The position numbers were made by a program, and so were the translations under genes. Under the pieces are notes generated by a model that saw nothing but the letters and a program-made list of their open reading frames with translations, had not been told where the DNA came from and searched no databases. DNA of 64,000 nucleotides from Streptomyces griseiscabiei (GTDB lineage Bacteria; Actinomycetota; Actinomycetes; Streptomycetales; Streptomycetaceae). Positions 32,834 through 58,479 of this stretch are shown here, in pieces. Where the stretch lies: NCBI RefSeq assembly GCF_020010925.1, contig NZ_JAGJBZ010000002.1:1178001-1242000 (forward strand), in the 5' to 3' direction. How positions within the stretch are numbered: position 1 is the first letter of the stretch; each line of letters begins with the position of its first letter.

Positions 32834-32854
32834 CGCCGGTTTGGCTAACCGGCG
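32834..32854. promoter_or_regulatory. Operator-like palindrome, copy 2 of 4
   Basis: A 21-bp perfect palindrome with 8-bp arms CGCCGGTT and AACCGGCG around a 5-bp centre, 55 bases before the minus-strand start at 32779. The same sequence, together with conserved flanks (a CATA-CCG block on one side, CGGACC on the other), occurs at 57252 in the other orientation. Its position before genes on both strands suggests a repressor or partition-protein site. Confidence 0.6.
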
Positions 32855-33221
32855 CTTCCCGGCTATGTTCCCTCGCCACCAGCGCAGCCGGCTCCGTGTA
32901 CCGCACTCCGCCCCGGTAGTTGCGTCGAGGAGTTCGAGCAGGTCAGAGGCTTCCTTGGCGTCACGGACAGCTTCGAAGCCCGCGAAAAGAACGCCTGCCC
33001 TCAAGCGTCTCCTGCTGTGCCGAGGCGAAGCTCCGGCATAGTCGGCTCACCGCGTTTCATGCAGCTGGGGGCTTGTGCTCGGTGGGCTTCGCCGTCACAC
33101 CGCCCGGGGGCGCGAGGGAGCGTTGCGTGCCCGGCGGGTGCACGCCCCACGGCAGGGTGAACCGGGCCGAGCACCGGGCGTGTCACCGTGCCCGGCTGAC
33201 GGCGGCCGATATCCCAGCAAC
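32855..33221. other. Regulatory gap between divergent units
   Basis: About 365 bases between the operator at 32834 and the secreted HNH nuclease at 33222. On the minus strand a TTG at 33004, with GGAGA upstream, opens a frame (AGVLFAGFEAVRDAKEASDL) that runs into the operator. It could be a remnant or leader, but I do not call it a gene. Confidence 0.35.
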
Positions 33222-33899
33222 ATGAAGACTTTGCGCATCGCGCTGGCCGGCATTCTGACCGTGTCAGCCCTGGCCCTGGCCGCACCCGCCTCCCCCGCCG
33301 TGGCGGCGCCGGGCGAGACCGTCACCGCCTCTCTGTCCGACCTCATCACCGCTCTCCCCGTCCACGGCGAGGGCCCCCGCGACGGCTACTCGCGCGAGCA
33401 GTTCCGGCACTGGATCGACGCCGACCGCGACGGATGCCACACCCGAAATGAAGTCCTTTTGCACGAGGCGATCGTGGCGCCGGAGGTGACCGGCCGCTGC
33501 AGCATCACCGCAGGCACCGGCCAGTGGTGGTCCTGGTACGACGAGACCACCCAGACCGACAAGGAGCAGGTCGACATCGACCACATGGTCCCGCTGGGCG
33601 AGGCATGGGACTCCGGGGCCGCAGCCTGGAGTGCGACCGAACGCCGTGACTACGCCAACGACCTCGACGACGAACGCAGCCTCCTCGCGGTACGGGACAG
33701 CGTCAACCAGTCCAAGGCCGATCGCGACCCCGGCGAGTGGATGCCGCCCGCGGCATCCGCGACCTGCCGCTACATCGCCGACTGGGTCACGGTGAAGACG
33801 CGCTGGGGCCTCACCGCCGACCCGGCCGAGCACGCGGCGATCACCCGGATCGCCGGCGGCTGCGACGACCCCCTGATCACCGTCACCCACGCCCGCTGA
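33222..33899 (+). CDS. Secreted HNH nuclease (DUF1524 type)
   Basis: A 225-residue protein with a Sec signal peptide (IALAGILTVSALALAAPASP, cleavage probably near AVAA). The mature part is an HNH/DUF1524 nuclease: VDIDHMVPLGEAWDSGAAAW carries the D-H pair, and VNQSKADRDPGEWMPP carries the Asn and downstream residues. Such secreted nucleases are common in Streptomyces and may degrade external DNA. ATG 33222 is chosen because it begins the signal peptide. It is a lone plus-strand gene within the minus-strand cluster. Confidence 0.82.
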   Translation: MKTLRIALAGILTVSALALAAPASPAVAAPGETVTASLSDLITALPVHGEGPRDGYSREQFRHWIDADRDGCHTRNEVLLHEAIVAPEVTGRCSITAGTGQWWSWYDETTQTDKEQVDIDHMVPLGEAWDSGAAAWSATERRDYANDLDDERSLLAVRDSVNQSKADRDPGEWMPPAASATCRYIADWVTVKTRWGLTADPAEHAAITRIAGGCDDPLITVTHAR

Positions 33900-34010
33900 A
33901 GCCACGGTTCGCAGGCGCGCAGTCGGCGCCCTCGAACCGGTCGGTGGCCCTGAACGGGGCCTCTCCCCGTTTGATAGCGGTCAGTCAGCGGTCCAACCGG
34001 CAACCTTTCC

Positions 34011-34116
34011 CCGAAGTGCCGCTACCTGGCCGAGCACGTGGCCGTCAGGCTCGGCTGGGCTCTGAGTGCGGACCCGGCCGAGCAGACCGCGATGCGCGGT
34101 GTTGCCGACGTGTGTC
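34011..34116 (+). pseudogene. Remnant of a second HNH nuclease C-terminus
   Basis: The plus-strand translation (KCRYLAEHVAVRLGWALSAD, then PAEQTAMRGVADVC) matches the end of the secreted HNH nuclease just upstream (CRYIADWVTVKTRWGLTADP, AEHAAITRIAGGC). No HNH core or start remains. It is a partial duplication or recombination scar about 110 bases after the intact gene. The rest of the 33900-34209 gap shows nothing. Confidence 0.65.
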
Positions 34117-34209
34117 CCCGGCGGGCGGAGTCGGCTTCGGTGAAGCCCGTGCGCCCGCCGTCGGTGGGAGACGGCTGCAGCGGACGCTGCAGACCGGCCG
34201 CAGGCTGCT

Positions 34210-34707
34210 CTACCGGTACGGGTTTTCGGTACCGCGGTCGCCGTCGGTTGCGGCGTCGAGGAGTTCGGGCAGATCGGTGCCGTCGGCGTCCCTCTGGTCG
34301 ATCCACCAACCGGCGCGGGTGACGGCACGGGCTTTCTCCTCCAGCTCCGCCCAGTCCGCCTCGTCCCAACTCCCTTCCACGACCAGTGCGGTGTGTGCGG
34401 CCGTCATCAGCTGATGACGCGAGCGCTCGCCCCAGTCCAGGGCCCTCTCGGGGCCTTCCAACTGAGGCATGTCGAACTGGGTGGCCCAGGCGAGGGCTGC
34501 TTCCTGTTCGGCGGCGCGCTTGGTCGCCAGCCATTCCTCCTTGGATTCGGTGTCGGTGTCGCGTGCCGCCTTCCAGCAGTCGGTGCAGTCACGTTCCTGC
34601 AGCCAGCGGGCGAAGGAGGCACGCCGGTCGGCGGGACGGTCGGACAGATCATGTTCACGTTCGTGCCCACAGCGGTGGACGATGGTCCAGGTCTTACGGA
34701 TTGCCAC
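34210..34707 (-). CDS. Small protein with possible zinc site
   Basis: A 165-residue protein starting MAIRKTWTIVHRCGHEREHD at ATG 34707. A CGH-x3-H group followed by RDCTDCWKAARD gives four candidate metal ligands. The rest is helical and acidic with several Trp (SWDEADWAELEEKARAVTRA). Family not recognised. It lies just downstream of the VWA/MoxR pair on the same strand. Confidence 0.6.
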   Translation of the reverse strand: MAIRKTWTIVHRCGHEREHDLSDRPADRRASFARWLQERDCTDCWKAARDTDTESKEEWLATKRAAEQEAALAWATQFDMPQLEGPERALDWGERSRHQLMTAAHTALVVEGSWDEADWAELEEKARAVTRAGWWIDQRDADGTDLPELLDAATDGDRGTENPYR

Positions 34708-34741
34708 GTGGTTGTTCCTGCTTTCTGTCTTCTGTGTCGTC

Positions 34742-36541
34742 TCAGCGTGTCCTGCGGATGGCGTCTGTGGCCGCCGTGGCGATGGCGGCGGGAGCGCTGG
34801 AGGGCTGGGGAAGGTGCAGCAAGGTGGTCCCCGGCAAGTGGCGGGACTTCGCGGTGAGGGTGAGCTGGAGTACGGCGCAGCCGACGGTCGTGAGCTGCTT
34901 GACGCGGGTGACGGCTTGCGCGGTTTCGTCGGGGGTGTAGACGGCGTCGGTGACGATCACGAGAAGGCGGCCGGTGCCGGGGCGGCTGAGTTCGAGGCCG
35001 TGGTCGAGCGCGTCCAGGGCGTTGGCGAGGTTGTGACTGCGCCCGTTGGCGCCGAACGTGGTCACGCGCTCCGGTGCCCGGTGGGTGGGTCGGGTCAGTG
35101 CGGTCAGATGCGTGTCGTAGGCGATGGTGGCGGTGCGGGAGTCGGGGTCGGTCAGGGCTGCTGCGCGTGCCACGATCCAGGCAGCGGACGCGACGGGCGC
35201 GCAGGCGGCACGCATGGAGCCGGAGACGTCGACGGCGATACCCACACGCAGCGGTGGGGTGGGGGAGTTCCGGCGGCGGGTGCGGGTGAACGGTTCCGCG
35301 GTGGGCACCGAACCGGCCGCGCGCTGAGCGTCGCGGGCGAGGGCCGCGCGCATGTTGAGGTGGCCGGGCGGGGTGGGGCTGGTGGTCCGCTCCTCGGTCC
35401 GCTCGCGGTAGGCGGCGGCACGCAGAGCGCGGCTCAGGCGCGCGGCGGCACTCTGCTCGGCGGCGGTGGGCCTGCGGGTGCCGGTGACCGGGTTGCTGTA
35501 GGGCGCCGGTGTGCCGTCGGGGGTGACGGTGGCGCTGCCGGAGTTGAAGACGGAACTCGCGGTGGCGGCGGCCTGGCGTCGCCGACTGGCCTGCTGGGCA
35601 CGGTCGTTGGCCTGTGCCCTTGATCGGGTGGCGATGGCGTTGGCCGCTGCGGCCTGTGCCGCGAGGTCGGCGGCGTCGGTGGCTGCCGCGCTGTCCATGA
35701 CGGCCCCCACGGCGCCGGACAGCAGATCGGTGAGGTTCTGCGGCAAGGGCAGGGCGGGGGCTGCGGTGTCCAGAGCGTCGCACCATTCTTGGGCGTGCGC
35801 GAGCATGGTCGTGGCGTCGTGGTCGGCACACTGGTGGGCTGCGGTCCAGATGCGGGTGAGTGTGGCCAGCAGGTCGGCGCCCAGCACCTTTTTGCACAGA
35901 TCGGCGACGGCCCGGCTCTCGCCGGCGTCCAGGATGCCGACGTCACGGCGGCCGAGGACCAGGGCCGCCACGGCGGCGGCGTGCTCGATGCCTTTAAGGG
36001 TGGGGTGAGCGATGTCGGGCATGACCAGGGTTCGGGCACTGGTGCGCAGGTACATGCGGTCCGTGGGCCGCCGGTTCAAGTGTGCGCCTTCGACACGGCT
36101 CTCCTCCAGCAGGAGCGCGGCCTCGACGACCCGGGGGTCCGCTCCGGCAGGCGCCGTCCAGACGGAGTGGGCCGCGTGCGCGGCCTCGTGGACGAACACG
36201 CCCCAGGCGGCGGGATACCGCTCCTCGTCGCCCACGATCCGCGGATGGATCTCGTGGGGCTGAAGCGGGGCGAACAGGGCGGCGTCGAACTCGACCTCAC
36301 CCAGAGTGGGGAAATAGGCGGCCGGTGCACCGCTGCGCGTGCCGGGGCGGCAGGTGACGAGGAGGTCCTGGCGGCCGGAGAGGGCGACGAGCCGGTCGCC
36401 GAGTTCGGCTCCCACGCGCACCCAAGCGTTGGGGGAGGAACGGGGGAGCGCGGGCGGGGCGCCGTCGTCGTCCCATCGCGCGAGGTCGGCGTCGTCGTCC
36501 GGCGTGGTGGTGGGGGACTGGACGTGGTGGTGGGCGCTCAT
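34742..36541 (-). CDS. HExxH plus von Willebrand A protein, partner of MoxR ATPase
   Basis: A 599-residue protein combining two parts. The N-terminal third has a zinc-protease-like HEAAH at residues 118-122 with downstream Glu (LLLEESRVEGAHL). The C-terminal third is a VWA domain with the MIDAS motif DVSGSM near residue 440 and a later TD-A metal-binding region. The middle is Ala/Gln-rich. CobT-like and other VWA proteins work with MoxR/CobS AAA+ ATPases to remodel targets or insert metals. Its ATG overlaps the ATPase stop, so the two are made together. The joint function here is unknown. Confidence 0.75.
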   Translation of the reverse strand: MSAHHHVQSPTTTPDDDADLARWDDDGAPPALPRSSPNAWVRVGAELGDRLVALSGRQDLLVTCRPGTRSGAPAAYFPTLGEVEFDAALFAPLQPHEIHPRIVGDEERYPAAWGVFVHEAAHAAHSVWTAPAGADPRVVEAALLLEESRVEGAHLNRRPTDRMYLRTSARTLVMPDIAHPTLKGIEHAAAVAALVLGRRDVGILDAGESRAVADLCKKVLGADLLATLTRIWTAAHQCADHDATTMLAHAQEWCDALDTAAPALPLPQNLTDLLSGAVGAVMDSAAATDAADLAAQAAAANAIATRSRAQANDRAQQASRRRQAAATASSVFNSGSATVTPDGTPAPYSNPVTGTRRPTAAEQSAAARLSRALRAAAYRERTEERTTSPTPPGHLNMRAALARDAQRAAGSVPTAEPFTRTRRRNSPTPPLRVGIAVDVSGSMRAACAPVASAAWIVARAAALTDPDSRTATIAYDTHLTALTRPTHRAPERVTTFGANGRSHNLANALDALDHGLELSRPGTGRLLVIVTDAVYTPDETAQAVTRVKQLTTVGCAVLQLTLTAKSRHLPGTTLLHLPQPSSAPAAIATAATDAIRRTR

Positions 36542-37743
36542 CGCGAGCGGCCCCGGTGTGCGGCGACGGTGCTGCCCGGTGGCTGCCGGCCGGCTGAGGC
36601 GGGGAGCTGTTTGCCGAGGGTGAGGGGAGCGATCTTCTTGACGCCGACAGTCTTGATGATGGCGGCGGCGACGGCGTCGCGATCCTCCTCAGGGGCGATG
36701 CCGACGAGGTTCGCGAGCGCGGCTTTGGTGCCGAGGACGGCCTCGGTCTTCTGGTAGCTGAGCAGTTCCCGCAGTTGGGGGGCCCAGCCCAGCTCGCCGA
36801 GTTCGACCTGGTGGGCGAGGTGTCGGGCGACCCGGACGACCCGGGCATCGATCCTCAGCGCGTTGGCGAGGTCATAGTCCGTGCCGATCTGGATCTGCAC
36901 GCTGAACCGGGACGACAGCGCTTCCGTCAACACCGCGCCGTGGACGCCGGGATTGTGGCCCGCGACCACGTAGAAGCCCGGCTCGGCCTTGATGGTCTCG
37001 CCCTTGTGGGCCTTGACCTGGATCTGCCTGCGCCCGTCCATCGCGGGATACAGCGCCGCCAGGACCTTCGGTGAGATCAAGGTGGCATCGTCGATCAGCA
37101 GGGCGCGGCCCTCGGTCATCGCGGTGACCAGCGGACCGTACTGGAAGACGTAACCTCCGCCGTCGGCCTGCGTGTACTCGCCGATCAGGTCCCCGACCGT
37201 GGTGTCGCCGTCACCGGCGACGGTGAGCAGGTCCTCGAACGCCGCCTCCACCAACGACGTTTTACCGGTGCCCGGAGGGCCGTAGAGCAGCACCGGCACG
37301 TCGGCGTCGCGCAGCCGATTCAACGCCTCGACGTCGGGCAGATCGGCCAGCTCCCGGGGGTGGTAGACCTGGCCCCCCGCGCGGCGGATCGGGCCGGTCC
37401 GCCTGGGCGTGGCTGCTGCGGGAATGGTCGTGCGGGCCGTGGCCGCCTGGGCGCGGGGAGCGTGAGTGCCCGGTGGGCTGATCACAGCGGTCTGCGCGGC
37501 TGCGGCGGTCTTCGCGTTCGCGCGGAACTCCGGTTGCCCCCTTCCGCCTTGGTCGGCCTCGCCGCGTCGCACCAGGGTGAGGGCGGCGTTGCGGACGGCG
37601 CCGTGGGAGTGGCCCAGCTGCCTGGCCATGTCCCCGATGGTGAGCGTGTCCGCCGGCCGGTCGGCCAGCAGTCGGGCCACCTTGGCCCGTAGTTCGCCGC
37701 CCTTGGTACGCGCTGGACTGGCAGGCGTTCCGGGAGTGGTCAA
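36538..37743 (-). CDS. MoxR/CobS-like AAA+ ATPase with N-terminal winged helix
   Basis: A 401-residue AAA+ ATPase. An N-terminal winged-helix-like segment (LTIGDMARQLGHSHGAVRNA) is followed by a linker and the ATPase core: Walker A GPPGTGKT at 155-162, Walker B RALLIDDAT at about 208, sensor region VVAGHNPGVHGAVLTEALSS and arginine finger SRF. It is closest to the CobS/MoxR class. The HTH fusion is unusual. It starts at TTG 37743 with AAGGA about 8 bases upstream. Together with the VWA protein it forms a chaperone-like pair. Confidence 0.82.
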   Translation of the reverse strand: MTTPGTPASPARTKGGELRAKVARLLADRPADTLTIGDMARQLGHSHGAVRNAALTLVRRGEADQGGRGQPEFRANAKTAAAAQTAVISPPGTHAPRAQAATARTTIPAAATPRRTGPIRRAGGQVYHPRELADLPDVEALNRLRDADVPVLLYGPPGTGKTSLVEAAFEDLLTVAGDGDTTVGDLIGEYTQADGGGYVFQYGPLVTAMTEGRALLIDDATLISPKVLAALYPAMDGRRQIQVKAHKGETIKAEPGFYVVAGHNPGVHGAVLTEALSSRFSVQIQIGTDYDLANALRIDARVVRVARHLAHQVELGELGWAPQLRELLSYQKTEAVLGTKAALANLVGIAPEEDRDAVAAAIIKTVGVKKIAPLTLGKQLPASAGRQPPGSTVAAHRGRSR

Positions 37744-37755
37744 AACGAGGATCCT

Positions 37756-38123
37756 TCAACAGGTACGGGTGCGGGCGGGGTTGGCGATGCGCTGGAGAGG
37801 CCGGCGGCGCTGGGAGCGGGTCACGGACTGTGCCGACATCGGCGAACGGACCGGCCGGGGCGTACCGTCGGCGCTCATCGGCCGGCCGAGGGCTCGGCCC
37901 AGGGGCACGAGGCGGCGGGCGACGAGCAGCTCGCTGGCTGCCGAGCAGGCCCGTGCGTCCGCTCCGTACCGGGTTCCGTCGCTCGGCAGGCGCAGCCGGG
38001 CGTCTCTTCGAAGCCGGCCTGGAGCAGGATCCGCCGGGCTGCCAAGTTGTAGCCGGTGGTGGTGATCTCGCCGGTGATGGCGTGCCGGATCGGTATGAAC
38101 GGCTCTGCTGGTGCTTCGGGCAA
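37756..38123 (-). pseudogene. GF-module protein, frame broken near 37995
   Basis: It starts at TTG 38123 behind AGGAG and reads AITGEITTTGYNLAARRILL, QAGFEETPG. The expected continuation (RLPSDGTRYGADARACSAAS, ELLVARRLVPLGRALG) lies in another frame. One extra C at about 37995 joins them into a protein of about 122 residues, and the stop is at 37756. It is the same module family as the genes at 39451 and 39783. Confidence 0.55.
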
Positions 38124-38263
38124 TGCGGATCTCCTATCGGTGGTGGCGGGAAAGCGGCGGTGTTGGGCGAAGGCGAGGCGGGCCGAGCCCGGAGCTTCCA
38201 GCACATCAACGGTGCGTGGCTGGACCACGAACGAGGGATGGAGGGGTAGCCGAAGAGGCGGCT

Positions 38264-39448
38264 CTAGCGGTGCCGCGCGGGTGCTGGGCCGCGGGCGGGA
38301 GGTGCGGGAGGGGTTGTGCCTGGGGCCGGGCGCGGGCGGATCCGCAGGGTGGGGGTGCGGTGGGGCGGCAGGACCGAGACGCTCGCGCCGAGGTCCTCGG
38401 CCGTCTCGCGCACTTCCTGGGTGAGGAAGTCGAGGTGCCGGCCCAGAGCGGCGAGCTGAGCGGCGACCTGCCGACCGCCGACGGTGTCCAGGGCATTCGC
38501 GAACTGCCCTGCCGTTGCCAGGAGTTCCTGGAGACGGACCAGCGGGCCCGCCTGATAGCCGTGCTGGGTGGCGGTGAGCAGGGCCTCGGCGACCTCACCC
38601 GCCGCTCGCGCTTCGGAGACGTCGCAGATCAGTTCCTGCACGGATACCTCGGGTGCGGGCTCCGGGCGGTCGAGCGGGGAGACGTCCGGGCGCAGTACGC
38701 CCGGCGGGACCGGAGACGGCAGGGCACGGTGGGCGACGCCTTCGTCGGCGTAGTGGCCGATCACCTGCCATCCCGGCGCGTGAGGATCGCCGGACGCAGC
38801 GACCACGACCGAGGAGTCGCCCTCGGCCAGGTGGGCGAGGGTGATGGACCGGCCGTCGGCCGCGTACCACGACTCGAGCAACTCCAGCTCACCCCGCCGC
38901 TGCGCCGCGTGGGCCATGTCGGTCCACCGCCGCTGTTCCTCGTCGGTCAGCGGGATCTCACGGTGTTTGTCGGGGTCGGTGATCTCGGTGGCGAGGTAGC
39001 TGTGGTCCGCCCAGAAGCCGAGGTGCGGCCATGCCGCCTGCTGCTGGGCGCGTTCGGCGGGGGAGCCGGGCTCGGCGGGCTGGCTGAGGATCTTCGCGAT
39101 CTCGGTGTGGGAGGCGGCGAGATGGTCGAGCTGGGCCTGCCAGGCGGTGGTGTGCCGGGCGGGCGGCAGCGCATCGAGGACCCGGCGGGCTGCGGCGAGC
39201 AGATCGTCGGCATACGGGAACAGGTACGTGGCGTACGCCTGGAGGGCTGCCTGGTCGCGGTGGGCGAGGGCGGTGGCTGCGGTGGCGTGGCGGACGGTGC
39301 GCCCGTGGCGGTCGCGGGTGACGTCGAGCGCGGTCTCGCTCTCACGGCCGATGCGCTTCATGCGCAGCCGGAACTCGTGTGCGGTCGCCGCGAGTTCACG
39401 CAGGGTGGAAGGGGGTGTGCGGGGGATCGGCTGCTCCTTGGCGGTCAT
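38264..39448 (-). CDS. Large helical protein of unknown function
   Basis: A 394-residue protein from ATG 39448. It is mostly helical and includes long coiled regions (LRELAATAHEFRLRMKRIGR and a late LAALGRHLDFLTQEVRETAE). The middle has a beta-like part (SWYAADGRSITLAHLAEGDS). The C-terminus is Pro-rich. No recognised motif, signal or membrane segment. It is tightly linked to the small module genes upstream. Confidence 0.58.
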   Translation of the reverse strand: MTAKEQPIPRTPPSTLRELAATAHEFRLRMKRIGRESETALDVTRDRHGRTVRHATAATALAHRDQAALQAYATYLFPYADDLLAAARRVLDALPPARHTTAWQAQLDHLAASHTEIAKILSQPAEPGSPAERAQQQAAWPHLGFWADHSYLATEITDPDKHREIPLTDEEQRRWTDMAHAAQRRGELELLESWYAADGRSITLAHLAEGDSSVVVAASGDPHAPGWQVIGHYADEGVAHRALPSPVPPGVLRPDVSPLDRPEPAPEVSVQELICDVSEARAAGEVAEALLTATQHGYQAGPLVRLQELLATAGQFANALDTVGGRQVAAQLAALGRHLDFLTQEVRETAEDLGASVSVLPPHRTPTLRIRPRPAPGTTPPAPPARGPAPARHR

Positions 39449-39450
39449 GG

Positions 39451-39786
39451 TCAGCGGCGTGTCCGGTGTCCTGTCGGCGCGTCCGGCGCCGGCCGGGCGA
39501 CCGGAGGCGAGGGTGTGGGCCGGCCCGGGGACGGGATCTGGAGGTCGGGGTCGAGGTGGACGGGGTAGCGGGCTGCACTCAGCATCTCGGCGGCCCAGGA
39601 CGCGTGACGGTTCTCCCAGTCGCGCCCGAGGTCGAAGGGCAGCCGGACCCACTGCCCCCGAAGGGCGGAGAAGGTCATGAACCCGGCCCGGGCCAGGAGC
39701 CGCGCGGCGAACTCGTCGTAGGCGCCTTCGACTTCGACCTCACCACCCGGACCGCGCAGGATACGGATCGGCGCGGCGGTGTTCAT
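39451..39786 (-). CDS. Small GF-module protein
   Basis: A 111-residue protein starting MNTAAPIRILRGPGGEVEVE. Residues 20-75 form the recurrent module (FAARLLARAGFMTFSALRGQ, then a strand and AAEMLSAARYPVHLDPDL). ATG 39786 overlaps the upstream stop by four bases. The tail is Pro-rich. Confidence 0.6.
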   Translation of the reverse strand: MNTAAPIRILRGPGGEVEVEGAYDEFAARLLARAGFMTFSALRGQWVRLPFDLGRDWENRHASWAAEMLSAARYPVHLDPDLQIPSPGRPTPSPPVARPAPDAPTGHRTRR

Positions 39787-40208: not shown

Positions 40209-40222
40209 AGACGGATCCTCAT

Positions 40223-40531: not shown

Positions 40532-40618
40532 GATCGCGGCGTCGGTAGAACCGTCCGCGAGCGTGGCACGGCACTGGTGGAGCAGGCAGGGCGCGTGGGT
40601 GAGGGTGGCTCGACAGGC

Positions 40619-41364: not shown

Positions 41365-41430
41365 CGGCGGTTCCTCGGGCAACGGCCGGAGACGTCGAGG
41401 GGGATGGGGAAGGCTCCGGGGTGTGAGCGG

Positions 41431-44092: not shown

Positions 44093-44599
44093 TCATGGTC
44101 CGAACAACTCGCCCTGGTCGGTGTGGCCTTCGCTCCAGCCGAAGACAGTGCGTTCGAGGTCTCCGAGGTGGACGAGGTCGGTGTGGGTCCGGAAGGCGTC
44201 GAGGACGTCGTCGGTGTAGTCCTGGATCTCGTTGTCCGCCAGGTCGACGCGGGCCCGGTTCTTTCGGGAGAGCCGGCGCCATTCCAGGACGTCGGAGTCG
44301 GTGGCGCGGTCCATCCAGACCCAGATGCCGTTGCCCAGCTTGATGACGTCCTGGGGGTGGAAGAGGCGCCCGGTCCGTCTGCGGCGGGGGTTGCGCTGTT
44401 CGCCGAAGCCGGTGACCAGGCTGTGGGCGAGTCGGTCCAGCGCGGCGGCCCTGATACGGGGGTCGAGGTCCTCGCGCACGAGTTGCTCGCGCACCGTATC
44501 GGTGAGGCGGCGTCTGTGGAAGCGGCCGGTGGCGTCGGTGAGCGCGACGGCGCTCTGCTCGACGAGGTGCTGCAGACGGATCTCGGCGGGGGAGGTCAC
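44093..44599 (-). CDS. Protein of unknown function after ParB
   Basis: A 168-residue protein whose start overlaps the ParB-like stop. It is helical with a central basic part (GEQRNPRRRRTGRLFHPQDV) and a Trp-rich turn (IKLGNGIWVWMDRATDSDVL). It may be a partner of the ParB-like protein by coupling. No family recognised. The 43935-44092 gap holds nothing clear. Confidence 0.55.
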   Translation of the reverse strand: MTSPAEIRLQHLVEQSAVALTDATGRFHRRRLTDTVREQLVREDLDPRIRAAALDRLAHSLVTGFGEQRNPRRRRTGRLFHPQDVIKLGNGIWVWMDRATDSDVLEWRRLSRKNRARVDLADNEIQDYTDDVLDAFRTHTDLVHLGDLERTVFGWSEGHTDQGELFGP

Positions 44600-45411
44600 G
44601 GCAGGTCACGCTCCTGCCAGACCTGGTCCATCTCGGCCAGCGCGGTCATGGCGTGCGCGATGATCTCGCGGGTGATGGGGGTTCCGCTGGCGTACTCGGG
44701 GTCGTAGCGGCCGAACGTACGGGTGCCGCGGGCCTGGGCGAGGGGCGGCACCACCTCGTCCAGCAGCCGGGTGGCCACCCGCCGCTGCCGCTTGTCCTCC
44801 TCCACGCGCTCGGTGCGCTCCGCCCACGCGCCGGTCAGGGTCAGGGCGCCCTCGACGACCCGGTCGGCCAGCTCGGGGTCCTCCTCCCGCAGCCGGGCGA
44901 GCTGGACCTCCGCGGAGTTGGCCTTGGCCTTGTTCTCCCGGGCGACGGCGTACGCCTCGTCCAAGCCCATGGCGCCGCTGATCACTGGGTCCACGAGGTC
45001 GGGCGCGTGCTGCAGAACGGTGCTCGCGCGCCCCATCACGGCCAGGGCGACGCCGAGCTGTTCCGCAACGGAACGCGCTGTCTGTTCCGAGCCGGAACGG
45101 CCGCCATTTTCCGAAACGGAACGGGCCTTGACCGTGATCATCGCGGACTGCCCCTTGGTCAGGCTGCGGCGCCGGAGATTGACCGACAGGACGTAGACGT
45201 CGGGGGTGTCGCCCTCGAAGGTGACGAAGACCGGTTCCATGCCGGCGCGTTCGCACGCGGTGAGCCGGCCGCGTCCGTCGAGGACGCGTCCTTGGCGGTC
45301 GAGGACGATGGGCTGCAGGAGCCCGTTCTCCTGGATGTCGTGGGCGAGGGCAGCCAGATCGTCCTCATCGAGCAGCGGGATGAGCGAGGCGGTCGGGTGT
45401 GATTCGATGAT
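44596..45411 (-). CDS. ParB-like nuclease/partition-family protein, start codon unclear
   Basis: The N-terminal part is a ParB/Srx-type domain: LIPLLDEDDLAALAHDIQEN, GLLQPIVLD, then the ParB box GRVLDGRGRLTACERAG and VYVLSVNLRRRSLTKGQSAM. Helical segments follow. ParB proteins bind centromere sites or act as regulators. No ATG, GTG or TTG is in frame between the upstream stop and this domain; GGAGAC is followed by ATC codons at about 45411, and the first ATG (45240) would delete the ParB box. Either a rare start or a base error is likely. No ParA gene is near. Confidence 0.72.
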   Translation of the reverse strand: MIESHPTASLIPLLDEDDLAALAHDIQENGLLQPIVLDRQGRVLDGRGRLTACERAGMEPVFVTFEGDTPDVYVLSVNLRRRSLTKGQSAMITVKARSVSENGGRSGSEQTARSVAEQLGVALAVMGRASTVLQHAPDLVDPVISGAMGLDEAYAVARENKAKANSAEVQLARLREEDPELADRVVEGALTLTGAWAERTERVEEDKRQRRVATRLLDEVVPPLAQARGTRTFGRYDPEYASGTPITREIIAHAMTALAEMDQVWQERDLP

Positions 45412-47553: not shown

Positions 47554-47578
47554 GCAGGGCCCTTTCGGCGAGGTGGGG

Positions 47579-49592: not shown

Positions 49593-49679
49593 AGGGGGCT
49601 GGTCCTGAGGGGCGCGGGTGGGTCCCCGGGGGCGGGAGGCGATCGGCGCCTCCCGCCCCCGAGGGGTTCGGGCGGATGG

Positions 49680-51041: not shown

Positions 51042-51059
51042 GCGGGACTCTCCTTTCGG

Positions 51060-51746
51060 TCAGGGGGCGACGTTCGGGGCGATGGCGACGAGCGAGCAGT
51101 CGGACGAGGGCCGGCACTGCACGGCGAGGGTGAGAGAGCGGTCCTCCGCGCCCTGGCCGCCCTTCGCCCAGCGAATCGTCTGCTTGCCGGTGACGGTCAC
51201 GGCGTAGATGTACGCCTCGGTGATCGCCGAAGGATCATCGGCAAAAGCCTGCTTGAACGCACTCGGGTAATGGCCCTCGGCGACGATGGCGGCGGCGTTC
51301 TGCTGCTGATCGGCCATCCGTGCCCACAGCGCCGGGGTGGGCATCTGCGCGGAGACCGAGGCCCAGTCGCTGTACTCGCCCTCCTTCGTCATCCACGCCT
51401 GCATGCCGACGAGTTGCTGGGCGTGGCTGGTGGAGCGGGTGTCGTAGGACCAGAGCATCCCGGCGGCAGCCCTGGCGAACACGAGCGGATCGGAGACTCG
51501 CGGGGGCTGCGGTACCGACCCGTTCCCAGTGGCCGGTCGCCCGGTGTTGCCCGAGGAAGCCGGAGCGGGCGACGAGGGAGCAGGGCCGCTGGTGGAGGAG
51601 GCGTGCGGTTCGCCGCGGCCGGTGAGGTAGGCGGTCGCTGCGGCGACGGCGAGCAGGCAGGTCAGTGCGAGGGCGATCAGAGTGATGCGACGGTTCGCCG
51701 ACCAGCCGGCGCCGTAACGCGACAGGGCGAAGGGCGGTTTGCGCAT
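51060..51746 (-). CDS. VirB8/TcpC-like single-pass membrane protein
   Basis: A 228-residue protein from ATG 51746. A short basic cytoplasmic tail (MRKPPFALSRYGAGWSANRR) is followed by one transmembrane segment (ITLIALALTCLLAVAAATAY), a Pro/Ser linker and an outer domain of about 140 residues with VFARAAAGMLWSYDTRSTSH. The layout is that of VirB8 or TcpC, which bridge inner and outer parts of the channel. Sequence-level assignment is weak. The start overlaps the stop of the gene before it. Confidence 0.62.
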   Translation of the reverse strand: MRKPPFALSRYGAGWSANRRITLIALALTCLLAVAAATAYLTGRGEPHASSTSGPAPSSPAPASSGNTGRPATGNGSVPQPPRVSDPLVFARAAAGMLWSYDTRSTSHAQQLVGMQAWMTKEGEYSDWASVSAQMPTPALWARMADQQQNAAAIVAEGHYPSAFKQAFADDPSAITEAYIYAVTVTGKQTIRWAKGGQGAEDRSLTLAVQCRPSSDCSLVAIAPNVAP

Positions 51747-52057
51747 CAGCGGACCTGGGAGCCGAGAGCGGAGAAGAACGCGACGATGCCGTTGGCGGCA
51801 CCGAGGCCGAGCGCGGCACCGGCCGCGACCACCGCGCCCTTCTTCCCGTTCGCCTCGGCCTGGTGGCCACCGCTGTGGTGGCCCCATGCCCAGACGCCGA
51901 GGGAGACGGCGAGTGCGCCGACCACGGCCACGATGCCGAACAGGTTGATGCTGTTGACCACGTTCTTCAGCACGGACAGGCCCGGCAGCCCGCCCCCCTT
52001 GGGAGAGATGCCCGGGTCGTAGGCGAGCTGGATGACGTGGTCGGCGAGGAAAGTCAT
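51746..52057 (-). CDS. Small two-segment membrane protein (pilin- or VirB3-like)
   Basis: A 103-residue protein with two hydrophobic segments, INLFGIVAVVGALAVSLGVW and a C-terminal Gly/Ala-rich one (VVAAGAALGLGAANGIVAFF). In such clusters a protein of this kind acts as a pilin or VirB2/VirB3-like component. It starts at ATG 52057, between the NlpC-type hydrolase and the VirB8-like gene. Confidence 0.6.
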   Translation of the reverse strand: MTFLADHVIQLAYDPGISPKGGGLPGLSVLKNVVNSINLFGIVAVVGALAVSLGVWAWGHHSGGHQAEANGKKGAVVAAGAALGLGAANGIVAFFSALGSQVR

Positions 52058-52156
52058 GGGGATGGTGAGACTCCTTGCATGCCCAGGCCCCAAGAGGGCC
52101 TGGGCAGAGGGGAAGAACGAGAAAGAGGTGAGGGCGAGGCGCGGGAGGGGCCGGCG

Positions 52157-53263
52157 TCAGATGACGCGGCGCGCCGCCAGGACGGCCCAGTCCTTGATCG
52201 CGGTGATCCGGACGGGCTTGGACGTGCGCGGGGCCTCGATCACGAGGCCCTCGCCGAGGTACATGCCCACGTGCTCGGGACGGGCAGCGCTGCCGCGGCT
52301 GAAGATCAGGTCGCCGGGCTTCAGGGCCTTGGCAGAGACGGCCTTGCCCTCATTGACCTGGGTGTAGGTCGTGCGGGTGAGGGTGACACCGGCGTGCGCG
52401 TATGCCTGCTGCATCAGGCTGGAGCAGTCGCAGCGGCCCATGGGGTCCGCGCCGCGAGGGTTGGTGCAGGAGCCGCCCCACTGATACAGCGTGCCGAGCT
52501 GCTGCATCGCCCAGACGATCGCCTTCCGGGCACGAGGGTCGGTCCCTGCGGGGATCTCGTAGCCTTTCGGGACGGCGCCTTCGGGGATCCGTCCGAAGGA
52601 CGAACCATCGTCCGTCGTGCATTGGGGCGCTGAAGGCGTGGCCTCGGTGTCGTCCTTGTCGGCGGAGGGGAAGGTTCCGGCGATGGCCTTCTGCAGCGCG
52701 GTCGCGAGCGGTTCCCACGGCGCGTACGCGTCCGGATACCTGGACATCTGCACGGCCTGGGCCGCCTGCGTGAGCGTCATCTGCTGCCAGCCGCTCACCT
52801 CAAGGAGCGCCTTGTAGAAGCGTTCGCTCGCGTAGACGGGGTCGCGGATCTGCTCAGGTGTGCCCCAGCCCTGCGAGGGGCGCTGCTGGAACAGACCGAG
52901 CGAGTCGAGGTCCCCAGAGGAGAGGTTGCGCAGCCTGGACTCCTGCATCGCCGTCGCGAGCGCGATGATCTGGCCCTTCTTGGGCACGTCGAGGCTGATG
53001 CCGGTGGCGACGATGGTCGCCGCGTGGGGGATCTGGATCTCGGGCAGGGCGAGGCCCTCGATGTGGACGTCCTTGCCGGAGGAACCGTCGAGGATCTCGG
53101 TCACCTGCTCGCTGACCTTGTCCGTATCGGGGCTGGACAGGCACTGGAGGGCGGAACTTGCGCCCTGGGAGGCTTCGCTGGAGGAGGCCATCAGCATCGC
53201 GGCGCCGCCGAGGAGGAACGGGCACAGGACGACGACGCCGATGCCGGCGGCGAGGGCCTTCAA
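52157..53263 (-). CDS. Lytic transglycosylase-like and NlpC/P60 cell-wall hydrolase
   Basis: A protein of about 368 residues. An N-terminal hydrophobic segment (GIGVVVLCPFLLGGAAMLMA) exports or anchors it. The middle part (IALATAMQESRLRNLSSGDL, LGLFQQRPSQGWGTPEQI) resembles a lysozyme-like transglycosylase with the Glu in MQES. The C-terminus is an NlpC/P60 endopeptidase with Cys in GRCDCSSLMQQAYAHAG and His in EHVGMYLG. It should open the cell wall for the T4SS channel. The start is uncertain: TTG 53263 is in frame, but GAAGGA lies before TTG 53322 in another frame, so a base may be missing near 53317. Confidence 0.83.
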   Translation of the reverse strand: MKALAAGIGVVVLCPFLLGGAAMLMASSSEASQGASSALQCLSSPDTDKVSEQVTEILDGSSGKDVHIEGLALPEIQIPHAATIVATGISLDVPKKGQIIALATAMQESRLRNLSSGDLDSLGLFQQRPSQGWGTPEQIRDPVYASERFYKALLEVSGWQQMTLTQAAQAVQMSRYPDAYAPWEPLATALQKAIAGTFPSADKDDTEATPSAPQCTTDDGSSFGRIPEGAVPKGYEIPAGTDPRARKAIVWAMQQLGTLYQWGGSCTNPRGADPMGRCDCSSLMQQAYAHAGVTLTRTTYTQVNEGKAVSAKALKPGDLIFSRGSAARPEHVGMYLGEGLVIEAPRTSKPVRITAIKDWAVLAARRVI

Positions 53264-53565
53264 CCGGTGCGACCCTCTCGGGTGCCGGGGCTTTCGGGCA
53301 GGGGTGGGTGACGAGGCGTCAAGGACGTGTCCTTCGGGAAGCGGTGTCCGGAGTGCCGCGCGGCGCGGGGAGGCGTGGTGGAAGGGAACGCGGCGGCCGG
53401 TGGTGGGCGATGAGAGCGGTCCGGCGCAGGCGAGTTGCCGCTCGCCGAGCGGGCCGGAGCTGCGAGTCAGGTGTGCCGGGGCAGTGGAACCTCCGTGAGA
53501 CGGGGGAGAGGGAAATGTGCCAGCGGCGGTGTGCGCCGGGCGGTTGAAAAACTGTAGGACCGGAT

Positions 53566-53584
53566 CGCCGGTCGACCAAAAAAC
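53566..53584 (+). promoter_or_regulatory. Operator-like element, copy 3 of 4
   Basis: CGCCGGTCGACCAAAAAAC, with GGAT just upstream, matches the left arm and centre of the perfect palindrome at 57252 but has lost the right arm. It is oriented like the plus-strand methyltransferase gene about 200 bases downstream. Confidence 0.5.
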
Positions 53585-53622
53585 TGGTGTGAGGTATCGG
53601 ATTCCGGCACATGGCAGACCGC

Positions 53623-53640
53623 TTTTTTGGCTGACCGGCG
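53623..53640 (-). promoter_or_regulatory. Operator-like element, copy 4 of 4
   Basis: On the minus strand this reads CGCCGGTCAGCCAAAAAA, again the left arm and centre of the palindrome. It points towards the minus-strand NlpC/T4SS unit. Copies 3 and 4 are thus arranged back to back in one divergent promoter region. Confidence 0.5.
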
Positions 53641-53785
53641 TTATCCGTCTACGGTTTTCGGACTCCCCCTTTGCTCTTCCCCGGTCTGCGGCCTTGGGCT
53701 TCTGCACGCCCAATTCCTGTCCGCGGGGTGTCTGCTGTGCGATGGGGGTTCTCCCGCACTCTCCCACCCGAATCGGGGTACCTCT

Positions 53786-54541
53786 TTGTCTTTTTCCCTG
53801 CATCAAGGCGACGCGCTCAGCGTTCTCGCCGGCCTCCCGGACGACTGCGTCGACTCGGTCATCACCGACCCGCCGTACAACTCCGGGGGGCGGACCGCGA
53901 AGGAGCGCACCTCCCGCAGCGCGAAGCAGAAGTACACCTCCGCCGACGCCGATCACGGCCTGGCCGATTTCACCGGCGAGAACATGGACCAGCGCTCCTA
54001 CGGCTTCTGGCTCACCCAGATCATGACCGAGGCCCAGCGGCTGACGACGACGGGCGGGACGGCTCTGCTGTTCACCGACTGGCGCCAGCTTCCCGTCACC
54101 ACCGACGCGATCCAGGCGGCCGGCTGGCTGTGGCGAGGGGTGCTGGCCTGGCACAAGCCGCAGGCCAGGCCCCAGAAGGGCCGGTTCACGCAGAACTGCG
54201 AGTTCATCGTCTGGGCGTCCAACGGGCCCTTGGACGCCTCCCGCAACGCCGTCTACCTGCCGGGCCTCTACAGCGCTTCGCAGCCCTCGGGCGCCAAGCG
54301 TCAGCACATCACGCAAAAGCCCGTCGAGGTGATGCGCGAGCTGGTCAAGATCTCCCCTCCCGGCGGTACCGTCCTCGACTTCTGCGCCGGGTCCGGCTCC
54401 ACCGGTGTCGCCGCGCTGCTGGAAGGCCGCGACTTCATCGGAGTGGAGAAGACCAAGCACTACGCCTCCGTCGCGAATGAGCGGCTCGCGGAGACCGTCC
54501 GACAGACCCTCACCCAGGACGACGTCGTCCTGACCGCCTGA
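53786..54541 (+). CDS. Beta-class DNA methyltransferase
   Basis: A 251-residue amino-methyltransferase. The catalytic motif IV TDPPYNSGGR comes first (near residue 29) and the AdoMet-binding motif I (VLDFCAGSGSTGVAALLEGR) comes near the C-terminus, the beta-class order of N6-adenine/N4-cytosine enzymes. ITQKPVE precedes motif I as usual. DPPY is commoner in adenine enzymes. It has no endonuclease partner next to it and may protect the element from host restriction. TTG 53786 is chosen because the domain begins right after it (LHQGDALSVLAGLPDD). Confidence 0.88.
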   Translation: MSFSLHQGDALSVLAGLPDDCVDSVITDPPYNSGGRTAKERTSRSAKQKYTSADADHGLADFTGENMDQRSYGFWLTQIMTEAQRLTTTGGTALLFTDWRQLPVTTDAIQAAGWLWRGVLAWHKPQARPQKGRFTQNCEFIVWASNGPLDASRNAVYLPGLYSASQPSGAKRQHITQKPVEVMRELVKISPPGGTVLDFCAGSGSTGVAALLEGRDFIGVEKTKHYASVANERLAETVRQTLTQDDVVLTA

Positions 54542-54603
54542 GTCAATGCCGTTTTGCTGAGCACTTCAGTTTTTCCCCGGCTTCGAGGAGGCCCGTCTTT
54601 TCC

Positions 54604-55260
54604 ATGCCCGAATCCGTAGAACCCCACGATGATGGGGAGTTGGAGCCGATCAGGATTCCGGATACTCACCTCGAAGGAATCGAGGCACGAGTCCGGAAGC
54701 TGATGGAGCAGTCCGCCGAGCAGGCCCAGCAGCTCGACCATCTCGCCACCGGGCCGGCTCCACGCCCGTCACCGTTCGCCGCGTTCGGTATGCCGGGGCT
54801 CGGCGGACCCGCACTTTCCGTTCCGCCCGAGCCGCGCCCGATTCTGGAGCTGGAGGGGGAGGAGTACGAGGACGAACTGGACGCCCTGAGCGACTGGGTC
54901 GACGACTTCCTGATGCCGGTGTACGGGGCCGAGGTCACCACGGCGGCGCCCTGGTGCCCGCAGTGGCAGGAGCACGACGCCGTCGTGGCCTGGCTCCACG
55001 CGCTCTGGCTCGCCTACCAGCAGCACAAGGACCCCGAGGCCGGCCTGAGCGGATTGCTCGTGTGGCACCGGGACTTCCTCACCCACGCCATCACGGCGGT
55101 CCGGGCGCCCGACGGTCCGCTGTCGGCGTGCATGACCTCACCGGAACGGCCCGCACACCGGATCCTGCCCGGACCGCCGCCCTCGGCCCGCACGAAGGAG
55201 ACGGGCACGGCCGGGGCGGTGACGCCGGGCTCCGGTGAGCCGGACGAGCCGACGTCATGA
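54604..55260 (+). CDS. DUF4913-like protein
   Basis: A 218-residue protein from ATG 54604. The centre (LSDWVDDFLMPVYGAEVTTA, APWCPQWQEHDAVVAWLHAL, LLVWHRDFLTHAITAVRAPD) fits the DUF4913 pattern of W-C-x-x-W, helix and a final D-G-P-x-x-x-C. DUF4913 proteins are frequent on actinobacterial plasmids with unknown role. The C-terminal tail is Pro/Thr-rich. Its stop overlaps the next start (ATGA). Confidence 0.7.
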   Translation: MPESVEPHDDGELEPIRIPDTHLEGIEARVRKLMEQSAEQAQQLDHLATGPAPRPSPFAAFGMPGLGGPALSVPPEPRPILELEGEEYEDELDALSDWVDDFLMPVYGAEVTTAAPWCPQWQEHDAVVAWLHALWLAYQQHKDPEAGLSGLLVWHRDFLTHAITAVRAPDGPLSACMTSPERPAHRILPGPPPSARTKETGTAGAVTPGSGEPDEPTS

Positions 55261-55736
55261 GCCCGGGGCAGCCGGCGTTCGGCCTCAGCTTCGATCCCCG
55301 GGCCCTGACCGACCTTCTCCAGGCCCCCGGCGACATCCGCGACCTGACCCTGTCGTATCTCCAGGAGGTGGTGAACGCCGAGCGGTTCGGCATCAAACTG
55401 ACCGGTGACCTGGAGGGTCACCGCAAGCTGCTCGTGGACTCCCGCAAGGAATGGCGGGTCGTCTACACCGTGCGCCCCGCTCCGCCGACGTCCGCGCACC
55501 ACCACGACATCCATGTCGTGGCCGTACGGCCACGGGCGGGCAACGACGTCTACGACACCGTCGGCCAGCGACTGGGCATGACCCGTCGGCCCCTGAGCGC
55601 CCGCACCCACGCTGCCCGCTCCCGCCCCCCACAGCTCACCGCCCGCGGGCCCGCGCCGAAGCCGGGACCGCCGCCCACCACACTGCCGGGTCTGCCACGC
55701 CCCGCCCAGGCTTCCTCGCCGCGCCACACTCGATGA
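55257..55736 (+). CDS. RelE/ParE-like protein
   Basis: A 159-residue protein. Residues 8-110 have a RelE/ParE-like pattern: FDPRALTDLLQAP, a helix, GIKLTGDLEGHRKLLVDSRK, then EWRVVYTV and a late HVVAVRPRAGNDVYDTVGQR. RelE-type toxins cut or block translation or gyrase. No antitoxin-like gene is adjacent, and the DUF4913 gene upstream does not look like one, so toxin activity is doubtful. The tail is Pro/Arg-rich. Confidence 0.6.
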   Translation: MSPGQPAFGLSFDPRALTDLLQAPGDIRDLTLSYLQEVVNAERFGIKLTGDLEGHRKLLVDSRKEWRVVYTVRPAPPTSAHHHDIHVVAVRPRAGNDVYDTVGQRLGMTRRPLSARTHAARSRPPQLTARGPAPKPGPPPTTLPGLPRPAQASSPRHTR

Positions 55737-55754
55737 CACCAGGAGCACCCGCCC

Positions 55755-56450
55755 ATGCCTGAACCCACGCCGACACCGGCCCGGCGTGCGGTCTCCCCGC
55801 TCGACCACCGCCTCGAAGCCGTCACCGGCCACGACATCGACACCCTGTGGACCTACCGCGACCGGGGCATCCTCGACGAGCCGCACGCCCACCTCGTCGA
55901 CCGGCACCGGGAGCTGGCCCAGGCCCAGACCGGCGTCACCTTCCACCTCCGTCTCCTCAACCGCCTGTCCAGCGGCGAGTTCGACGTCGACGACGCCCTG
56001 TTCACGCGCATCGACCGCACCGTGGACCAGTTGGAGGAAGCCACCGCCGTACGGGACGTCGCTGCCCGGCACGTGCTCGCCGCCCTGGAACCCGTCGAGG
56101 CCGCCGCAGCGGCCTTGACATCCGGCGCGAAGCCGCTCTCGACGGACGACCATGCCGTACTGCTCGCCATCGCCGGCGGAGCCAAGCTCCACGAACACCT
56201 GCTGACCGGCCGGCTGTCCATCACCGCTGCCTCCGGCACCCGCATCCCTCACGCAAAACTCCAGCGGCTGGAGGACGCCGGGCTGGCCGTCCGGGACACC
56301 ACCCACCCCGTGCACGCCGGCCAGCCGGTCGCGCTCACCGATGCCGGACGCGCCGCGCTCCTCGCCGCCCGCCGGACCCCCACCGCCCCGGCGCCGAAGG
56401 TCCCGCAGCAGCCCGGCACACCGCCCTCCACCCCGGCGCAGCGACGCTGA
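55755..56450 (+). CDS. Helical protein with C-terminal winged helix
   Basis: A 231-residue protein from ATG 55755. The N-terminal 120 residues form a helical bundle similar to the small proteins at 57561-58910 (HLRLLNRLSSGEFDVDDALF, then ATAVRDVAARHVLAAL). The C-terminal part (TRIPHAKLQRLEDAGLAVRD, VALTDAGRAAL) has the look of a winged-helix domain. It may link that helical family to DNA binding. Confidence 0.58.
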   Translation: MPEPTPTPARRAVSPLDHRLEAVTGHDIDTLWTYRDRGILDEPHAHLVDRHRELAQAQTGVTFHLRLLNRLSSGEFDVDDALFTRIDRTVDQLEEATAVRDVAARHVLAALEPVEAAAAALTSGAKPLSTDDHAVLLAIAGGAKLHEHLLTGRLSITAASGTRIPHAKLQRLEDAGLAVRDTTHPVHAGQPVALTDAGRAALLAARRTPTAPAPKVPQQPGTPPSTPAQRR

Positions 56451-56470
56451 ACCCCACCGAAAGGCCCTTG

Positions 56471-57211
56471 TTGTCTCCCACCGAACCGGCGCCGCCCCGC
56501 AAGCCCATCCCTCACGTCGACTTCGCCCTGGACGACTTCGCCGCCGACGAGGAGATGTACCGCGACTTCTACCGCAAGGTCGCCGTCAACGAGGACATGC
56601 TCGTCCCCCTCGCCGAACACCACAGTGGCGGGCACAGTTACTACGTCCTGTTCGACCGTACCGCCACCTGGGGCCACCCCGGCATGGCGCAGGTGCTCGC
56701 CGTCCATCTGCAACGAGACCGTGAGAAGCGGACGTTCACCTTCGACCACGCCCGCCTGCCGCTGCCCGCGATGGCACAGTCCTGGCTCATCCACCGCGGC
56801 TGCCCGCCCGACGCTGTTGGCCTCAGCCCCACGCTAGGCCCGCCGCCGGCGGACGAGGCCACGCGCGCGCTGGAGCGGCGCCTCGCTGGCGACGGCGACC
56901 GCTACGCCATGGGCTACTCGTATACGAGCGACAACCCGGACGACATGGTCACCGTCGTGGCCCTACGAGCCCCGGACGAGCGAGCCCCCTCCCCGTTCCG
57001 CGTCCTGGTGGAGGAGGTCGACACCGAAGCCTGGACCCACACCCTGCGCGAGGGCGGCTTCACCACGGTGGATGAGGCACTGCAGTGGTGCAACGACCGG
57101 CTCACCGGCGAGGCAGGCCCTCTCCCATCGGTCCGCCCGGCAACCGCGGCCGTCCGTCCGGCCGGTGCAGCACATCCCCCTGCCTCACGTCCGCCCGGCC
57201 GCTCGCGCTGA
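56471..57211 (+). CDS. Protein of unknown function
   Basis: A protein of about 246 residues from TTG 56471 with AAAGG upstream. Features are an acidic N-terminal region (FALDDFAADEEMYRDFYRKV), LAVHLQRDREKRTFTFDHAR, SWLIHRGCPPDAVGLSPT and EAWTHTLREGGFTTVDEALQ. No known family. It closes the plus-strand group that starts with the DUF4913 gene. Confidence 0.55.
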   Translation: MSPTEPAPPRKPIPHVDFALDDFAADEEMYRDFYRKVAVNEDMLVPLAEHHSGGHSYYVLFDRTATWGHPGMAQVLAVHLQRDREKRTFTFDHARLPLPAMAQSWLIHRGCPPDAVGLSPTLGPPPADEATRALERRLAGDGDRYAMGYSYTSDNPDDMVTVVALRAPDERAPSPFRVLVEEVDTEAWTHTLREGGFTTVDEALQWCNDRLTGEAGPLPSVRPATAAVRPAGAAHPPASRPPGRSR

Positions 57212-57251
57212 GCGCCACGGGCGACGAGAGCGGCGAAACATAACCGACGAT

Positions 57252-57272
57252 CGCCGGTTAGCCAAACCGGCG
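57252..57272. promoter_or_regulatory. Operator-like palindrome, copy 1 of 4
   Basis: A 21-bp perfect palindrome (8-bp arms CGCCGGTT and AACCGGCG) identical, as its reverse complement, to 32834-32854, with conserved flanks on both sides. It lies about 290 bases before the plus-strand gene at 57561. The rest of the 57212-57560 gap holds no supported gene. Confidence 0.6.
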
Positions 57273-58477: not shown

Positions 58478-58479
58478 CC

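Follow-up and report, generated by a model that had tools for sequence, protein, structure and literature searches.

A 21-bp dyad common to a Streptomyces integrative and conjugative element and to mobilizable elements, a candidate site for an element-encoded DNA-binding protein

Introduction

Among the described systems closest to the one reported here, the AcaCD boxes are common to IncA/C plasmids and to the integrative and mobilizable elements (IMEs) SGI1 and MGIVmi1; AcaCD is a demonstrated activator, and in SGI1 its sites lie upstream of xis and of S004/rep (PMC4207636). SGI1 further has two sequences that mimic the partition site parS of IncC, an inverted repeat of 22 bp with conserved sequence along one flank, and binding of ParB was demonstrated there (PMC10954446). 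In the SpdA/sps system of Streptomyces plasmids, a plasmid protein binds a 12-bp palindrome (CGTCACGTGACG) located within spdA or close to it (PMC4170104). Here we describe a 21-bp dyad that occurs twice in a 64,000-nucleotide stretch of the genome of Streptomyces griseiscabiei (10.6 Mb; G000:C2:1178001-1242000, hereafter the window), inside an element classed below as an integrative and conjugative element (ICE) with a type IV secretion system (T4SS).

The dyad resembles the AcaCD boxes in that one motif lies upstream of helper-element units and of the xis, rep and mobilization genes of unrelated IMEs. It differs from them in being a 21-bp dyad with a one-sided flank, in belonging to a Streptomyces T4SS ICE, in having two arm forms, and in having a regulator that is only a candidate. 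With the parS mimics of SGI1 it shares an inverted repeat with a one-sided flank, present there in many copies in the helper and in two in the IME, whereas no conserved ParB was found here between the sites C and D (see below) of four other ICEs. Like sps it is a conserved palindrome of mobile elements with an element-encoded recognition protein, here again only a candidate, although the sequence and layout of the 21-bp site differ. Since its anatomy resembles both the AcaCD and the parS systems, an operator and a partition reading were both kept. No account on the subject emerged from the open literature for the letters of six forms of the motif, nor anything for Streptomyces, HxlR and a conjugative element together, subscription journals being outside the scope of both searches; no word beginning with 'palindrom' occurs in the word-searched open texts on Streptomyces ICEs.

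Results

The 21-mer CGCCGGTTTGGCTAACCGGCG is found once on each strand of the window (sites C and D, Table 1), and both full sites carry the block TATGTT at a fixed distance, within a common flank TTGGCT-17 bp-TATGTT. Nine of the ten base pairs about its centre are complementary, the exception being a T facing a T two bases from the centre. The preliminary description of this DNA, which had reported perfect palindromes with conserved flanks at 32834 and 57252, was therefore right about both copies and about the flank, and slightly overstated in the word 'perfect'. A 29-bp pattern of site plus flank, allowing up to three mismatches, matches the window at three places, namely the two full sites and 53627 (two mismatches), and matches nothing in 100 dinucleotide shuffles.

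The host element is delimited by a 22-bp direct repeat at 1158846 and 1336156, which encloses about 177 kb. It encodes a TraG/TraD-type coupling protein and SCO6880/SCO6881-family genes (above curated cut-offs; VirB4-like matches fall below theirs). A MobA-type relaxase was matched at 1266807-1267637, and the gene at 1334462-1335856 is integrase-like, as recognised by reading only. No tRNA was found at its ends. To judge from its gene content, the element can be classed as a T4SS ICE by its coupling protein, VirB4-like ATPase, relaxase, integrase and direct repeats. A scan of 240 kb with a 63-column matrix, built from 32 non-redundant sites and used with a cut-off of 12, gave five sites with scores of 69-86; four further matches above 12 are the same places on the opposite strand, and three mononucleotide shuffles gave no match. 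Four of the five sites belong to the ICE, two per orientation: one lies near each of its ends and one flanks the T4SS module on either side.

Comparison across elements revealed two main arm forms, CGCC..GGCG and CCCC..GGGG, which change jointly within ICEs. All five sites of the ICE in genome G038, which share a stretch of 180 kb and are named E, C, D2, D and B by their neighbour genes, read exactly CCCCGGTTTGGCTGACCGGGG, as do the five ICE-type sites of the same classes in G012, a genome that also holds an IME K site with CCCCGGTTTGGCTGACCGGGG and an IME A site one centre base off. The flanks behave differently: mean identity between different sites of one genome is 0.51 (G038) or 0.58 (G012), against 0.67-0.92 for same-class sites compared between the two genomes. 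Set against the ICEs of CGCC..GGCG form, the G038 and G012 flanks of E, D and B are slightly closer to their own class, those of C not.

The same holds over many genomes. Among the matches listed, to which the cluster counts also refer, at least 59 of the 62 genomes with an HxlR-like gene (see below) have a site of the strict pattern. Of 37 HxlR-like places, 32 lie within 200 kb of two or more of the listed sites, which together number 102, and the arm form is uniform in 30 of these 32 clusters (21 CGCC..GGCG and 9 CCCC..GGGG); in 20,000 shuffles, uniform clusters averaged 11.6 and never exceeded 21. Two genomes, G057 and G233, each possess two ICEs, one per arm form, and each ICE is uniform, indicating that the cause resides in the element and not in the host. 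The earlier suggestion of one common trans-acting factor is borne out by this joint change, for which an element-encoded DNA-binding protein would be the simplest cause and is well supported as such.

Sites fall into classes at recurrent gene boundaries. Class A, of IMEs, has XRE/xis/int on its left and rep, MobC and MobA on its right (PF03432, PF05713, PF01381); class B lies upstream of the ICE integrase, class C between the gene families F9 and F12, class D between F33 and F13, class E (seven sites) between the converging ends of F16 and another gene, and class K between the 3' end of a relaxase gene and a small gene, while D2 is a further gene boundary that carries a site in G038 and G012. 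Boundaries C, D, E and B are reused in different ICEs, and sites of classes A, C, D and K lie close upstream of genes. The TATGTT sides of paired sites face each other (C/D and E/B in the ICE of the window, A/K in the IMEs L108 and L211). An integrase-like gene of family F0, recognised by reading and not by profile, is found within 4.5 kb of 47 of 88 examined sites, nearly always on the left side and strand, and four sites lie near a gene that reads, without a profile, like an FtsK/TraB-type translocase.

ICE sites and IME sites co-occur in one genome. In IMEs, the site lies between the XRE/xis/int side and the rep-mob operon, with a second copy, where seen, by the 3' end of the relaxase gene. 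As with helper-regulator boxes of the AcaCD/SetCD type, the motif is thus present in both ICEs and IMEs, upstream of int or XRE/xis/int and of excision and mobilization genes, the E sites being the exception. Six IME pairs are readable at both sites, those of G093, G110 and G384 having been paired by distance and orientation; G024, G077 and G149 (degenerate arms) and G006 (outer left bases unread) were not counted. Both sites have the same arm form in G029 (one outer base changed), G384 and G046.

The site consensus is cAAT..TCcg.ag.ATCGCCGGTTTGGnTAACCGGCGATCnnnSGGCTATGTTsCGCC. In a set of 200 distinct sites, selected for TA in the block and including some in both reading directions, 138 have TATGTT as the block, 13 TATATT, 7 TACCTT, 7 TACAAC, 6 TACAAA, and the rest other sequences. 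The five central bases vary as well (TGGCT 95, TGGGT 18, TGGTT 15, TGGCC 15, others), and the base seven pairs from the centre is complementary in 189. Two other explanations of this anatomy were tried and rejected. For a hairpin, bases beyond the core showed no covariation among 32 non-redundant sites in a search that held the core fixed; the arm forms recognised later change on both sides. For site-specific recombination at inverted sites, which calls for identical centres in the paired sites of one element, the centres are unlike in L108 and L211.

The motif is not frequent elsewhere at random positions, as the preliminary description had allowed it might be; it does recur, but for the most part next to integrase-like genes or relaxase modules, or at gene boundaries that are the same from ICE to ICE. 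Its 18-bp core CGGTTTGGNTAACCGGCG (17 specified bases) is present in 45 of 150 genomes of the genus, the reversed control in none. Order-wide, 49 of 197 genomes have it, every one of them in the genus of the window; 16 genomes from five other genera of the order gave no match. With up to three mismatches across 29 specified bases, 63 of the 150 genus genomes match. A scan of named genomes gave at least 120 stretches, and of the 80 listed, 79 are from Streptomyces and one from Kitasatospora. Four plasmid records carry the motif, all from Streptomyces, two of them being small circular records with ICE-type genes. A phage collection gave no match to the motif, and two viral contigs contain the 18-mer without its flanks, which was taken as chance. 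The genome of the window also has one full chromosomal site between methyltransferase-like and PstS-like genes (L023, G000:C5:128242), with no integrase-like gene recognised nearby, which may be an orphan or a remnant.

Two further features of the window had been described as back-to-back half-copies of the palindrome, at 53566 and 53623, and as possible members of one regulon with it. They are a divergent pair of promoter-like sequences (Table 1), and both score below the low cut-off of the site matrix. In the equivalent intergenic region of eight other ICE loci (six genomes), TTGGTC and a -10-like block are retained on both sides, and GACCGGCG of the window is replaced by GTCGGC (plus side) or by AACCGCC-like variants (minus side). 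The ACCGGCG part of the half-copies is not retained across these eight loci, so that the half-site resemblance is not conserved and membership of the regulon is not supported for them. To judge by this conservation, 53551-53655 holds the divergent promoters of the T4SS and methylase operons, not copies of the dyad. The promoters, of the form TTGGTC-17-TAC(A/T)GTTTTTG, are conserved in nine ICE loci including the window.

As a candidate binder we considered an HxlR-like protein of 282 aa encoded by the fourth gene after site D. It matches PF01638 with 61.6 bits (cut-off 20.8), and its gene is present in 62 of 295 genomes of the genus at E <= 1e-25. The predicted model (mean predicted local distance difference test score 80.7, residues 227-282 poor) has two winged-helix domains. 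Domain 1 resembles YdzF, YodB and HxlR by sequence, and its fold matches HxlR-type chains with modest E-values above 0.001, placing the candidate by its HxlR winged-helix domain with the HxlR-family regulators (HxlR, YodB, HypR). Unlike these, it has a second winged-helix domain in the same chain, where the matched HxlR chains have about 90-170 residues. A D-type dyad lies 1.4-2.0 kb upstream in 36 of 40 fetched HxlR-like loci (19 CCCC..GGGG, 12 CGCC..GGCG or one base off, one TCCC..GGGA, four with unlike arms); it was not found at L412, L426 and L436, and L434 is truncated. The D site of G424 is mixed. Domain 1 has a recognition region that hardly varies among ICEs of CGCC..GGCG form and is different in others, a correlation along lineages. 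We regard binding of the dyad by this protein as possible, with the odds somewhat against it. A link between the HxlR-like protein and the proposed operator once drawn from G047 was withdrawn, as G354 and G050 have nearly the same helix and a different centre.

The ParB-like protein, proposed before as an alternative binder, is unlikely to fill that role. The match of its open reading frame to TIGR00180 falls under the curated cut-off, tblastn found no match in the C-to-D intervals of four other site-bearing ICEs (G107, G104, G038 and G047; those intervals only), and its part 44596-45240 matched just one (L208) of 27 loci taken as IMEs. Two IME proteins were tried and rejected: MobC, whose identity between IMEs falls to about 30% and whose recognition strand differs while the site is unchanged, and the XRE protein F6 as common binder, which has no relative in the ICE and a helix nearly unchanged between the arm forms.

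Around the sites of this ICE several local features stand out. The 1.35 kb or so that separates site C from the end of F9 (window 32860-34209), against about 40 bp in other ICEs, corresponds to an insertion next to an intact site. At 32180-32331 only remnants are left of the relaxase-like F3', which other ICEs encode intact beside site C; the F3' protein has no HIH motif by reading and no Pfam match. An IME-like rep-MobC-MobA module (L145, G000:C2:1265928-1273055) lies within the ICE with no dyad beside it. Immediately beyond the ICE repeat, a second xis/int pair with its own dyad (G000:C2:1336374-1338916) may be a tandem element or a remnant. A likely defence island at window 547-9228 encodes a DUF4007 protein, a large AAA-like protein, a PAPS-reductase-like protein (by reading) and a GmrSD-type restriction protein.

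Table 1. Sites and genes discussed in the text. Positions refer to the window unless marked as contig positions.
Feature	Position	Strand	Remarks
Site C, 21-bp dyad core	32834..32854	+	CGCC..GGCG form; other ICEs have it in the same place with respect to F12 and F9
TATGTT block of site C	32864..32869	+	17 bp past TTGGCT; block conserved among sites
Site D, identical 21-bp dyad core	57252..57272	-	Flanked in other ICEs by the end of F33 and the start of F13
TATGTT block of site D	57237..57242	-	29-bp pattern match
'Half-copy' 1	53551..53579	-	Promoter-like TTGGTC-17-TACAGT, toward NlpC/P60 gene; no dyad copy
'Half-copy' 2	53627..53655	+	Promoter-like TTGGCT-17-TACGGT, toward N4/N6 DNA methylase gene; no dyad copy
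Site E	contig 1160100	+	Inside ICE; matrix
Site C	contig 1210845	+	Inside ICE; matrix
Site D	contig 1235261	-	Inside ICE; matrix
Site B1	contig 1333958	-	Inside ICE; matrix
Site B2	contig 1336374	-	Just outside ICE, next to another xis/int pair; matrix
HxlR-like protein, two winged-helix domains	58953..59801	+	Candidate binder; PF01638, model
ParB-like open reading frame	~44596-45381	-	TIGR00180 E 1.2e-4, under curated cut-off
TraG/TraD-type coupling protein of ICE	23847..25643	-	One of the features that class the element as a T4SS ICE
F12	32354..32779	-	First gene past site C on the side without TATGTT; matched nothing in Pfam or NCBIfam
F9	34210..34707	-	Its end adjoins site C in other ICEs; distance here 1.35 kb
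F13	57561..58037	+	First recognised gene of unit after site D
F37	58034..58477	+	Second gene of unit after site D
F22	58452..58910	+	Third gene of unit after site D

Discussion

We infer that a protein binds the dyad. In our preferred reading, which we give a probability of about 0.6, the 21-bp dyad would be the core of a control site of about 55-60 bp, read by a DNA-binding protein that the ICE family itself encodes, and would represent an operator of the ICE regulon copied by IMEs, much as SGI1 copied AcaCD and parS boxes. Copies are placed where transcription units meet: B precedes the ICE integrase, C belongs to the unit of F12 and the relaxase-like gene, D precedes the HxlR-like unit, D2 marks a further boundary in G038 and G012, and E is near the other ICE end. 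The dyad core covers the -35 position on the TATGTT side, and on its opposite side the next gene follows at a short distance, so that binding should switch several units together, with transcription, either repressed or activated, as the presumed output. The regulator of a helper ICE would also act on IMEs that carry the same site. The link that the preliminary description had drawn over some 25 kb is supported, though the extent is larger, with four sites over the ~177-kb ICE and others in separate IMEs. Two of the four features it had reported are real copies of an element-wide, cross-element recognition site, and the other two are ordinary promoters.

Several observations weigh against this reading. 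E sites, lying between convergent genes, offer no obvious gene for an operator, and the relaxase module of the ICE itself is without any dyad site. The five ICE-type sites of G012 are spread over the chromosome, and two of the 32 clusters (G013 and G234), among the matches listed, are mixed. The arm forms track the HxlR-like tree with few changes, which implies few independent switches, and the shuffles consequently overstate the evidence. As for the HxlR-like candidate, many residues besides the recognition helix also separate the arm forms, and only 14 of 45 site-bearing genomes are among the 62 with its gene. The other 31, outside that list, would fit satellites awaiting a helper and would fit another binder equally well. 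Finally, three of the six IME pairs (G076, G093 and G110) have one site of each form.

One rival reading is a partition role, in which an ICE-encoded centromere-binding protein would hold the element at the dyads and IMEs would mimic them as SGI1 mimics IncC parS. Scattered intergenic dyads, found even between convergent genes (E), with a one-sided conserved flank and copies in IMEs, speak for it, and the two SGI1 mimics (PMC10954446) offer a precedent with a similar inverted repeat and flank. We consider it unlikely, however, given that the cognate ParB, expected to be conserved with such sites, is missing as the ParB-like frame from the C-to-D intervals of the four other site-bearing ICEs, that no ParA was recognised among the genes read (no profile for ParA having been run over the whole ICE), and that sites of classes A, C, D and K are close upstream of genes. 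It is also quite improbable that the binder is the small XRE repressor beside the IME site, acting in immunity, with the ICE sites as cross-immune copies. The gene of F6, with its HTH_3 domain, begins at the A site in many IMEs, but the ICE contains no relative of it at E <= 0.01, IMEs with CCCC..GGGG sites have almost the same helix, and in G046 and G076 the XRE gene is on the opposite side of the site.

An origin of transfer, where the dyad and TATGTT would be the inverted repeat and nic site of shared MobA-type relaxases, is very improbable: one would expect a single site near the relaxase in one orientation, whereas one ICE has four, two per orientation and none at the relaxase module. Its polar layout of dyad, fixed spacing and conserved block, the relatedness of IME relaxases (PF03432) to that of the ICE, and the contact of K sites with the relaxase gene speak for it, yet the block varies like a -10 element (TATGTT in 138 of 200, then TATATT, TACCTT, TACAAA and others), and sites also occur beside the FtsK/TraB-like translocase gene. 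The occurrence of one site in different element types of a single genome might recall the ordinary operator of a host regulator, which is scarcely credible when 105 of 150 genus genomes are without the core and both arm forms are present in G057 and in G233, with no mixing inside an ICE. We give as little credit to a repeated palindrome that has no binder and whose copies stay alike through gene conversion or transposition. Many intergenic copies and the joint sequence change speak for it, but identity ends at the 21-mer, with flanks only 0.40-0.73 identical within a genome, and different ICEs have their copies at the same gene boundaries.

Returning to an operator read by an ICE-encoded protein, the mixed-form IME pairs contrast with the uniform ICEs, and for that reason one may conceive of two operator codes, CGCC..GGCG and CCCC..GGGG. 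Every ICE lineage would have a regulator for its own code, and some IMEs would be bilingual, keeping a site in either code and so being triggerable by either helper lineage. We put this forward as a doubtful extension. That IME and ICE forms match strictly, as they do in G012, was rejected as a rule, since the hybrid IMEs of G093 and G110 contradict it.

If an ICE-encoded protein does read the dyad, several mobile elements may be coupled in their behaviour through one DNA-binding protein, and a single sequence would tell the reader of a genome which satellites a Streptomyces ICE may control. The two arm forms would then represent a natural pair of diverged regulator and operator specificities, with dozens of sequenced examples.

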